NCBI GenBank assembly: GCA_015057875.1
Contig: SVDG01000004.1
Coordinates: 1-32,331 of the forward strand
Direction: 5' to 3'
From: Lachnospiraceae bacterium
GTDB taxonomy: Bacteria; Bacillota; Clostridia; Lachnospirales; Anaerotignaceae
Length of the DNA: 32,331 bases
Part shown: piece by piece, positions 515-4,882 of the stretch
Numbering within the stretch: position 1 is the stretch's first letter
Layout of the letters: each line of letters begins with the position of its first letter
Notes under the pieces: model-generated
What the model was told of the DNA's origin: nothing
What the model saw: the letters and a program-made list of their open reading frames with translations, nothing else
Databases searched by the model: none
Position numbers and translations under genes: made by a program

Positions 515-539
515 AAAATCCCCGTTTGGGGATTTTTTT
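513..539. terminator. Bidirectional intrinsic terminator between convergent mogA-like gene and ATPase
   Basis: aaaaaatccccgtttggggatttttt: short perfect stem flanked by A-run and T-run. Confidence 0.85.
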
Positions 540-3128
540 ATTTTCTGAAGGATTTGAAAATCTGTATGACCAGTGTAGGCATAAAGGCTAAAAGATAGAC
601 TGTACCCAGCTGGCTTAAACTGAGTGGAGTTACCTCAAAAAGCTTCTGCAGGAAGGGTATAAACATAACAAGGCTTATAAGCACCAAACCTGAGCCGAAA
701 GCGAGTAAGCTTGCGGGGTTTTTGGATAAACCGCTTTTAAAGATATTGTATCTGCTGCGGCAGTTAAAGCCGTGGAAGAGCCTTGCAATCGTAAGGGTCG
801 CAAAAGCCATTGTGCTTGCAAGGACACTTCCGCCTATATCAAGACCGATGTAGAAGGCACAAAGTGTTGCAGCCGCTATAAGGGCACCCTGACTTAATAC
901 AGAGAATAAAAAGTCCTTTGTAAGTATGCCTGTTTTGGGGTCTCTTGGTCTGTCATTTAAAAGGTCTTTTTCAGCAGGCTCCATACCTATTGCAATAGCA
1001 GGCAGAGAGTCTGTTAAAAGGTTTATAAATAACAGATGCACAGGTGCAAAGGGAACGGGCAGGGCAAGGAGAGAGCAGTAAAGCACGCTTATTATACCCG
1101 CCATATTACCTGAAAGAAGGAACTTGATGGCATTTTTAATGTTTTTATAAACATTCCTTCCGTTTGCAACGGCTTTTATTATTGTGGCAAAGTTGTCATC
1201 TGTAAGTATCATAGCGGCGGCATCTTTTGAAACTGCTGTTCCTGTTATGCCCATTGCAACGCCTATGTCGGCCTTTTTAAGGGCAGGGGCATCATTTACT
1301 CCGTCACCTGTCATTGATACTATAAAGCCTTTTTTCTGCCATGCATCAACTATACGTATTTTGTTTTCGGGAGAAACACGTGCATAAACTGATATTTTTG
1401 TTATCACGCTGTCAAGCTCATCGTCTGTCATAGCGTCAAGCTCAGGGCCTGTTACAGCAATGTCACCGTCTTCAAAAATGCCTATCTGACGGGCTATTGC
1501 TGTTGCTGTGACCTTGTGGTCACCTGTTATCATAACAGGGCGTATACCGGCACGTTTTGCATCCTCAACAGCCTCCTTGGACTCTTCTCTTGGAGGATCT
1601 ATCATGGATATAAGGCCGAGGAAGGTGAAACCGTCCTCTTCCTCAAGGGTAAGTTCGTGTTCATCATGAACTTCTTTGTAAGCAAAGGCAAGTACTCTTA
1701 AGCCTTCGTTTGAAAATTCCGTATTTTTATCGAGGATAGTCTTTTTATCTTCTTCTGTTAGGGGGCGTATGTCATCGTTTATCCTTATATTTTCAACTCT
1801 GTCAAGCAGAACATCAACAGCACCCTTTGTAAGCACCGTAGGTACTCCGTGAAGATGGTATTTTGTGCTCATAAGCTTTCGGTCAGAGTCAAAGGGAAGT
1901 TCCTCAAGGCGGGGCATAAGCTCCCTTATAAACACATCGTCAAGACCGATCTTTCTCGCCATTTCAACAAGGGCAAATTCTGTAGGGTCTCCGATACCTT
2001 TACCATCAACGATAGTGGAATCATTACTTAATATGGCATCATATAAAAGATAGCGGTGAAGCTGGCTTGAAAGGTCTATATGCTCTATGTTGAGGGTCTT
2101 GCCGCCTATATATACCTGCTGAACTGTCATCTTGTTCTGTGTCAGTGTACCTGTTTTATCAGAGCAGATAACAGATACCGAGCCAAGACTTTCAACAGCC
2201 TTAAGCTCTTTTATTATGGCATTTCCTTTGCCATTTTCTGTGTGCCGAGAGCCTGAACTATTGTTACGATAGAGCTTAAAGCCTCCGGTATTGCCGCAAC
2301 AGCAAGGGCCACGGCAAACATAAGGGAATCAAGTACGGGCATATCCCGATAAAGACTTAATACAAAAACAAGGGCACAAACAGCCATTATGGCTATAGCA
2401 AGCTTTTTGCTGAATTCATCAAGGCTTATCTGCAAGGGGGTTCGCTTTTCCTTTGTTTCATTCATAAGGCCTGCAATTTTTCCAATCTCGGTATCCATTC
2501 CCGTGCCTGTTACAACAACGGCCGCACGGCCATAGGTAACGAGGGATCCTGAAAACACCATATTTATTCTGTCCCCCAAGGGCACATCTTCGGTTATATC
2601 GCTTGCGTATTTATCTACGTTTGTAGATTCACCTGTAAGCGAGCTTTCATTTACCTGAAGGGAGAAGTTATCTATGATCCTTCCGTCTGCAACAACAAGG
2701 TCACCTGCTTCAAGCATTATTATGTCGCCGGGAACAACTTCTTTTGATGGTATCTCCGTTTTTTGTCCGTTTCGCATGACCTTTGCAACAGGGGCTGATA
2801 ATGACTTTAAGCTGTCAAGGCTCTTTTCAGCCTTTATGTGCTGAATAGTGCCTAATACAGCGTTAAGTATTATAACGGCAAGTATAACTATCGTACTTTC
2901 GGTGTTGCCCGAAAAAAAAGATATTATAGCGGCTATGATAAGTATGATAACAAGTAGGTCCTTAAACTGTTCAAAAAATACCTGAACAGTACTTTTCTTT
3001 TTGCCTTCCGAAAGGGCATTTTCACCGTGCTTTTCAAGCCTTATTTTTGCCTCTTCGTCCGTAAGACCATTTTTTGTTGTATTTTTTTCTTTAAGCACTT
3101 CCTGTGCGGATAAACGATAATATTCCAT
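538..3128 (-). pseudogene. Cation-translocating P-type ATPase (P2/SERCA-like), split by an apparent -1 nt frameshift near 2221
   Basis: ORF 3128..2214 carries the actuator TGES motif (SSLTGES) and TM4 IPEAL, ending ...TQKMAKEMP*. ORF 2130..538 carries the N- and P-domains (TGDGVNDAPALKKADIGVAMG). The 2131-2220 gap, in the frame of the second ORF, encodes [30 protein letters not shown], so the protein is continuous except for one missing base (gaaatgcc where gaaaatgcc is expected). Confidence 0.85.
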
Positions 3129-3154
3129 TTTTCTCCTCCTGATAAATTGACCTA

Positions 3155-3310
3155 TAAAAAAAGACTTTCAGCATATCTCATACAAGGCACAGCTTAAGTA
3201 TTGCCTTATATCAGATATGTTAAAAGTCTTGTAACCAAATTTATGGCACACATCACCAGACCATGCGGCCGCGTTTGTTGACGATGCGTTTAAACTACTC
3301 CCCTTTAACG
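3155..3310 (-). promoter_or_regulatory. yybP-ykoY (manganese) riboswitch with intrinsic terminator
   Basis: Minus-strand sequence contains aaaggggagtag...gcatcgtcaacaa...gtctggtgatgtgtgccat...ggttacaagactttt...tgccttgtatgagatatgctgaaagtcttttttt. This has the GGGGAGUAG and GCCUUGU..GAG elements expected of the motif. The 3' aagactttt/gaaagtctt stem ends in a U-run just upstream of the ATPase RBS. Confidence 0.88.
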
Positions 3311-3331
3311 AAGCATTTAGTTGTTATTGGT

Positions 3332-3360
3332 ATTATATGATAATAATTATCATTTGTCAA
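3332..3360 (-). promoter_or_regulatory. Sigma-A promoter for the riboswitch/ATPase transcript, with Fur-type box in the spacer
   Basis: Minus strand TTGACA (3355-3360), 17-nt spacer, TATAAT (3332-3337). Spacer contains TGATAATTATTATCA (3338-3352), a perfect 15-nt 7-1-7 palindrome. Confidence 0.85.
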
Positions 3361-3427
3361 ATGTATTTTTTAGCTTGATTTAATGATAATAATATGATAT
3401 TTTTATAATAATATTTATAAAGGCTAT

Positions 3428-3636
3428 GAAAAAGAAGCAGTAGTTTATTGCGGTTACAGCGAAAGAGAGCAGGGCGGTCGGTGAAAGGCCTGCAGCACGC
3501 AGATAAACGAATTACACCTTTGGAGCTTCCCCAAAAAGGGACGGAGGGCGCACGTTAAGCGTAAAGAGGCATATTTTTATGCGAATTAAGGTGGTACCAC
3601 GGCTTGCTCGTCCTTTGGATATGGCAAGCCTTTTTT
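3428..3636 (+). promoter_or_regulatory. T-box leader, predicted tRNA-Tyr specific
   Basis: Canonical T-box aattaAGGTGGTACCACGG (~3584-3602), AG-bulge-like agcgaaagagag, specifier-loop gaatTACacc (TAC at 3513-3515 = Tyr), and terminator stem ggcttgc...gcaagcc plus T-run (3601-3636) just before tyrS. Confidence 0.93.
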
Positions 3637-3658: not shown

Positions 3659-4882
3659 ATGCAGATTTATGAAGAACTTGTTGAACGTGGGCTTATAGCT
3701 CAGGTTACAGATGAAAAAGAGATAAGAGAGCTTGTAAATGCGGGAAAAGCAACATTCTATATCGGCTTTGACCCCACAGCGGACAGTTTACACGTTGGCC
3801 ACTTTATGGCTCTTTGCCTTATGAAGAGATTACAGATGGCAGGGAACAAACCCGTTGTACTTATAGGCGGCGGAACAGGACATATCGGCGACCCTTCAGG
3901 CCGTACAGATATGAGAAGTATGATGACAGCAGAAACTATCCAGCATAACTGCGACTGCTTCAAAAAACAGATGGAGCGTTTCATTGAGTTCGGCGAGGAT
4001 AAGGCTATAATGGTAAACAATGCTGACTGGCTTTTAAAGCTCAATTATATCGATATGTTAAGAGAGGTAGGAGCTCATTTCTCAGTTAATAACATGCTCC
4101 GTGCAGAATGTTACAAACAGAGAATGGAAAAAGGTCTTTCATTCCTTGAGTTCAACTATATGATAATGCAGTCTTATGACTTCTATTATCTCTTCCAGAA
4201 ATACGGCTGCAATATGCAGTTTGGCGGAGATGACCAGTGGAGCAATATGCTCGGCGGTACAGAGCTTATCCGCCGTAAGCTTGGCAAGGACGCTTACGCT
4301 ATGACAATAACACTTCTTCTTAACTCAGAGGGTAAAAAGATGGGCAAAACTGCATCAGGTGCAGTTTGGTTAGACCCTGAAAAAACAAGCCCTTACGAGT
4401 TCTATCAGTACTGGAGAAACGTAGGCGATAATGATGTACTTAAATGTATCCGTATGCTTACATTCCTTCCTCTTGAGCAGATAAACGAGATGGACAAATG
4501 GGAAGGTGCAGAGCTTAACAAGGCTAAAGAAATACTTGCCTTTGAACTTACACAGCTTGTTCACGGCACAGAGGAGGCTGAAAAAGCACAGGCTGCTGCA
4601 AAAGCGCTTTTCGGCGGCGGAGCACAGATGGGCTCTATCCCCACAACAGAGCTTGGTACAGACTACTTTGCTCAGGGCAAGGATGCGATTTCTCTCCTCG
4701 TTGATACAAAGCTTGTTCCTTCAAGAGGCGAGGGCAGACGTCTTATCCAGCAGGGCGGACTTAAGCTTAACGGAAACAAGATCGATGATGTGGCTTACAG
4801 CGTAACAACAGCAGACTTTGACGGCGATGAGCTTATGATCCAGAAGGGTAAAAAGACATTCCATAAGGTTAAATTAGTATAA
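3659..4882 (+). CDS. tyrS: Tyrosyl-tRNA synthetase
   Basis: [58 protein letters not shown] and C-terminal S4-like domain. RBS ggagg upstream. Confidence 0.98.

Follow-up and report, generated by a model that had tools for sequence, protein, structure and literature searches.

A putative PerR-type operator in series with a manganese riboswitch-like leader at a cation ATPase gene of a Lachnospiraceae bacterium

Overview

The window analyzed here is a 32,331-nucleotide stretch from a Lachnospiraceae metagenome-assembled genome (MAG; contig SVDG01000004.1 of assembly GCA_015057875.1). On its minus strand, a perfect palindrome fills most of the spacer of a consensus promoter, which is followed by a leader resembling the yybP-ykoY manganese riboswitches and by the gene for a P2-type cation ATPase. 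The palindrome is probably (we would put it at about 0.68) the operator of the host's PerR-like repressor, predicted to act in series with the riboswitch. This reading is founded on the two Fur-family proteins encoded by the host, one Zur-like and one PerR-like, and on the presence of the same box at flavodiiron and rubrerythrin genes. The arrangement of box, riboswitch and ATPase is a new combination of known parts, seen in one genome.

A perfect operator within a consensus promoter

The promoter region contains the following elements:

3355–3360, minus strand: -35 hexamer TTGACA (promoter scan, 12/12 together with the -10 hexamer)
3338–3352, minus strand: perfect palindromic operator TGATAATTATTATCA (7-1-7, exact match), predicted, PerR-type by host context
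3332–3337, minus strand: -10 hexamer TATAAT (promoter scan)

The TTGACA-17-TATAAT arrangement at 3360–3332 is the top promoter-like match of the region, and the 15-nucleotide palindrome occupies positions 3–17 of its spacer with 0 mismatches, exactly as the original prediction had described it. That prediction also took the palindrome for the 7-1-7 consensus of the Bacillus-type Fur, and by sequence this holds, the operator matching the Bacillus Fur box TGATAATNATTATCA. Markov models of order 0–3, for which 109 kb of host DNA served as training data, predict 0.02–0.04 perfect 7-1-7 sites by chance in the 1.46-Mb host MAG, where two are found; moreover, the bases of the 17.5%-GC stretch 3301–3420 were shuffled 20,000 times without a perfect site arising. 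Hence, the site is real and base composition does not account for it. In the rest of the window, the number of matches with three mismatches is not above chance. An action of the box on the divergent tyrS promoter was considered and set aside: the -10-like TATAAT of tyrS (3404–3409) lies more than 50 bp away, and tyrS (3659–4882, plus strand) has its own T-box.

The company kept by the box

The genes marked by this box elsewhere in the host and its relatives are primarily those of defense against oxygen and peroxide. The host's other perfect box, which like the one in the window is located in a promoter region, lies 25 bp before a gene for an acyl-CoA dehydrogenase/rubredoxin protein that is followed by a flavodiiron protein gene, and a box with two mismatches lies 66 bp before the host rubrerythrin gene. 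Perfect boxes occur in 19 of 58 genomes of the family, several of them 17–32 bp before rubrerythrin, while a reversed control pattern has no perfect match in these 58 genomes. Among the 23 rubrerythrin genes of relatives that were scored (out of 30 loci), the promoter has a box with at most two mismatches in 14 and at most three in 20, and no box in the remaining 3. The host feoB has no box at up to four mismatches. Clostridial PerR proteins are known to repress rubrerythrin- and flavodiiron-type genes (PMC3828012, PMC8546684), the Clostridium acetobutylicum PerR in particular repressing fprA and the reverse-rubrerythrin genes (PMC3828012). Given these targets, the absence of the box at feoB and the precedent of the clostridial repressors, the box is best read in the host's family as a putative PerR-type operator. 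The membership of the PerR regulon does vary, as can be seen from Clostridium difficile, whose PerR does not control the organism's own O2-reductases (PMC11481553). Other perfect boxes of the relatives are situated close to an EamA-type transporter, to a thioredoxin gene and to a NUDIX/GNAT region (loci L143, L144, L146 and L147–L149; box at 1501), and these are possible further members of the regulon.

Which Fur-family protein may read the box

Two Fur-family proteins are encoded in the host MAG, which is 85% complete. The PerR-like one (contig C83; L130:3068–3493) scores 157.4 bits against the NCBIfam clostridial PerR model versus 91.7 bits against the Bacillus Fur model; as it falls under the PerR cut-off (NF052545, 180 bits), with PerR still its best family by far, it is called PerR-like here. 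When aligned with the PerR and Fur proteins of Bacillus subtilis, it displays all five metal ligands of PerR (H37, D85, H91, H93 and D104), position 104 being Asp as opposed to the Glu of Bacillus Fur. At position 61 it has Lys, where Bacillus PerR has Asn and Bacillus Fur has Arg, and this Lys is shared without exception by the 18 PerR-like proteins compared, which come from the host and 17 relatives. As reported by Caux-Thang et al. 2015, a change of Asn61 to Arg turns the Bacillus PerR toward Fur boxes; a basic residue at this position thus appears compatible with recognition of a Fur-like box by a PerR, with the qualification that the change in the literature is to Arg and the residue here is Lys. 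The host additionally encodes a regulator of the DtxR/MntR family (G000:C76:17362–17532, L227).

The original prediction took the box to be of the Fur type and gave, as an example of the gate, a gene that is on at low iron and high manganese. On this explanation, a true Fur that is missing from the incomplete MAG would bind the box, such that the gate opens at low Fe and high Mn and senses the Fe:Mn ratio. The identity of the box to the B. subtilis Fur consensus speaks for it, as does the 85% completeness of the MAG, so that a Fur could be missing from it, and the Escherichia coli mntP gene, which is controlled by both Fur and a Mn riboswitch (PMC11647493). Against this, the MAG has no Fur ortholog by score, and none of the 30 Fur-family proteins from the host and 17 relatives, comprising PerR-like proteins, Zur-like proteins and one divergent protein, combines Glu104 with His37 and Asp85 as Fur does; furthermore, the box is absent from feoB and its targets are oxygen-defense genes. 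Fur control is therefore unlikely, even if it fares best among the alternatives, and that part of the original prediction is not borne out.

A compact manganese riboswitch-like leader

Downstream of the promoter, the transcript would begin with a leader composed of the following elements:

3219–3312, minus strand: compact yybP-ykoY-like (Mn riboswitch) aptamer with cores GGGGAGUAG and CGUCAACA..CUGG (covariance model R1, 71.9 bits)
3303–3309, minus strand: 5' strand of the presumed P1.1 switch helix (GUUAAAG), complementary to CUUUUAAC at 3226–3219
3154–3230, minus strand: intrinsic terminator hairpin with U tract (-33.7 kcal/mol), the 5' arm of which holds the 3' strand of P1.1

That the leader is akin to the yybP-ykoY Mn2+ riboswitches had been proposed from the start, and the proposal withstands scrutiny, although not by the standard model: the Rfam Mn riboswitch model RF00080 gives the leader just 16.9 bits, where the gathering score, which is a detection threshold, is 45. 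None of 20 related ATPase leaders scanned reaches this score either, and the gathering score was accordingly rejected as the sole test for a riboswitch. Since Rfam at this threshold misses the window leader along with the 20 related ones, a separate covariance model (R1) was built from 22 orthologous ATPase leaders, with the window left out of the training. It matches 3312–3219 with 71.9 bits (E of 2.5e-13, a rough value), which is its sole match in the host genome. Across the 22 orthologs, 10 of the 15 predicted pairs show pair-keeping changes on both sides. The leaders upstream of the orthologous ATPases share a common order, in which AAAAGGGAGTAG is followed by one strand of a variable stem, then by CAACA, a short hairpin and CTGG, then by the strand that completes the stem, and lastly by CC...GG and TTACAAGACTTTT. 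In the window, the cores GGGGAGUAG and CGUCAACA lie in paired context and a terminator is present, a combination expected of yybP-ykoY riboswitches.

The terminator fold of -33.7 kcal/mol (z = -6.2), made by the 70 nt that come after the aptamer, is equaled in stability by none of 200 shuffles, and miRNA matches in 3148–3238 were discarded as being this same hairpin. GUUAAAG lies directly 5' of GGGGAGUAG, and CUUUUAAC sits inside the 5' arm of the terminator; the two presumably pair as P1.1. In the Lactococcus lactis switch, Mn2+ stabilizes P1.1 and thereby blocks the terminator (PMC11087558), and as the layout here matches that of the L. lactis switch, the leader is very probably a Mn2+-ON switch.

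Two further observations pertain to the leaders of related genomes. Compact Mn-riboswitch-like leaders at clostridial P2 ATPases (L100–L119, L018–L076) score below the RF00080 gathering threshold and would be detected by a subtype model; the Rfam model thus overlooks a compact leader present before many clostridial ATPases. The same ATPase is preceded in other genera by leaders of a second subtype (GTAGCTT...CGTTCGTCATCACGG; L099, L103, L104, L106, L108, L111–L113).

The ATPase gene and its divergent neighbor

The coding regions and the neighboring leader are as follows:

2217–3128, minus strand: N-terminal part (304 aa) of a P2-type (Ca/Mn-type) cation ATPase, NCBIfam SERCA/PMR1-type (ORF 2214–3128)
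538–2130, minus strand: C-terminal part (530 aa) of a P2-type ATPase in another frame (ORF and family match)
3417–3618, plus strand: T-box leader of the divergent tyrS (RF00230, 104.3 bits)

The gene downstream of the leader does encode a P-type ATPase, as had been anticipated, and family profiles place it in the P2 type. The two ORFs are halves of one such ATPase, split by a one-base frameshift at an A run near 2215–2225 that might be either an assembly error or a genuine lesion; being a fragment, the N-terminal ORF scores below the full-length cut-offs of the SERCA/PMR1-type family. Its closest Lachnospiraceae orthologs are 74–76% identical to it. The named relative that has a Mn riboswitch is C. 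difficile CD2503, an ortholog of L. lactis YoaB (PMC11477304). The ATPase of the window is a probable manganese pump, which would export Mn2+.

A lineage-specific addition

The original prediction had named a lack of conservation of the palindrome in orthologous promoters as one way to refute it, and here it fared badly. Upstream of 109 orthologous ATPases (29 unnamed ones from the family or order and 80 named ones), the best box match nearly always has 4–6 mismatches, the few cases with 2–3 mismatches being scattered. A search for a half-box together with the riboswitch core found the pair of box and riboswitch in no other genome among roughly 700 distinct ones (overlapping samples of 388 genomes of the class and 392 of the order); four other matches to the joint pattern were rejected upon reading their sequences, G428, G668 and G737 resembling coding sequence and G317 a T-box leader. 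As far as these sequences indicate, riboswitch and ATPase form a conserved unit to which the operator was added recently or in this lineage only. Non-conservation at the orthologs points to a lineage-specific site and does not show it to be inert.

The same pattern might nevertheless arise if the palindrome were a coincidence or a remnant within AT-rich promoter DNA on which no repressor acts, with the riboswitch alone regulating the gene. Such a view gains from the lack of conservation at about 109 orthologs, from the restriction of the box-riboswitch pair to a single scanned genome, and from the AT-rich stretch and broken gene in which the site is found; yet a perfect site, of which only 0.02–0.04 are expected per genome, here takes up the spacer of a promoter with 12/12 matches, and both perfect sites of the genome are in promoter regions, making this account improbable and placing it just behind that invoking Fur. 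Least credible by far is a coupling of zinc to the pump through binding of the box by the host Zur-like protein (C11), a member of the Fur family with Arg at position 61 whose gene adjoins znuABC (a zinc ABC transporter), because no close box is found between zur and znu, where its target would be expected, the best match there having four mismatches.

A proposed two-input gate

Returning to the PerR-type operator, we infer repressor binding, repression, Mn2+ binding by the leader and transport by the ATPase, which as a chain would operate as follows. The PerR-like repressor of the Fur superfamily, with Fe2+ or Mn2+ as corepressor, would sit in the promoter spacer and block RNA polymerase on the consensus promoter. 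When H2O2 or O2 oxidizes the Fe-loaded form, the repressor would leave the DNA and transcription could initiate. The leader would then terminate this transcription unless Mn2+ folds the aptamer, whereupon P1.1 would capture the terminator's 5' arm. Production of the pump would thus be confined to conditions that combine oxidative stress (or an unmetallated repressor) with high Mn2+. Of the two-input gate proposed originally, the spacer operator, the strong promoter, the Mn-type leader with its terminator and the cation ATPase all survive, whereas Fur as the repressor and the logic of low Fe with high Mn do not.

PerR binds either Fe or Mn, and H2O2 oxidizes the Fe form only (PMC9993123); Mn overload locks PerR as a repressor and dulls the peroxide response, which is averted in streptococci by Mn efflux (PMC9253540). 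As Mn-loaded PerR remains on DNA, a plausible benefit of Mn2+ export would be to keep PerR Fe-loaded and responsive to peroxide. Tentatively, and with the odds rather against it, the system might be extended to a lineage-specific AND gate with positive feedback, in which expression of a Mn2+ exporter must pass first a PerR-type repressor and then a Mn2+ riboswitch: oxidized PerR would give rise to the pump, which would lower Mn2+, prevent the Mn form from being locked on DNA and leave the peroxide response available.

Several points count against the PerR reading. At high Mn, Mn-PerR would repress the gene while Mn2+ would favor read-through, two effects that oppose each other. To this may be added the lack of a box at orthologous ATPase promoters, the score of the C83 protein (157 versus the cut-off of 180), the 85% completeness of the MAG, the broken frame of the ATPase and the variability of the regulon.

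Parallels in known systems

A Fur-family box on an efflux gene had been thought unusual, a notion that precedents in both B. subtilis and E. coli soften. In the former, the metal-efflux P-type ATPase gene pfeT is under a PerR-type operator and is derepressed by peroxide (PMC9993123); it differs in encoding a P1B4 ATPase and in being also activated by Fur, whereas in the window the ATPase is of the P2 type and its leader resembles a Mn riboswitch. In the latter, mntP is likewise a Mn exporter gene under Fur-superfamily control and a Mn riboswitch (PMC11647493), with the differences that it does not encode a P-type ATPase, that both Fur and MntR act on it and that its riboswitch is translational. 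The closest parallels to the leader are the yybP-ykoY elements of L. lactis YoaB and C. difficile CD2503 (PMC11477304, PMC11087558), which share with the window the kind of ATPase, the aptamer cores and a terminator 5' arm that contains the 3' strand of P1.1; relative to these, the window adds a perfect Fur-superfamily operator in the spacer, and its compact aptamer falls below the Rfam threshold. The PerR regulon of C. acetobutylicum (rbr3 and fprA; PMC3828012) parallels the host in having flavodiiron and rubrerythrin genes with an operator, but no Mn-ATPase member of the clostridial regulon is reported in the cited literature.

Significance

As the PerR-like proteins of the host's bacterial family carry Lys61, these patterns suggest that a Fur-type box in this family is to be read as a PerR site, which calls for caution in motif-based annotation of regulons. 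If the proposed reading is true, a single promoter would link manganese export in an anaerobe directly with its response to peroxide.
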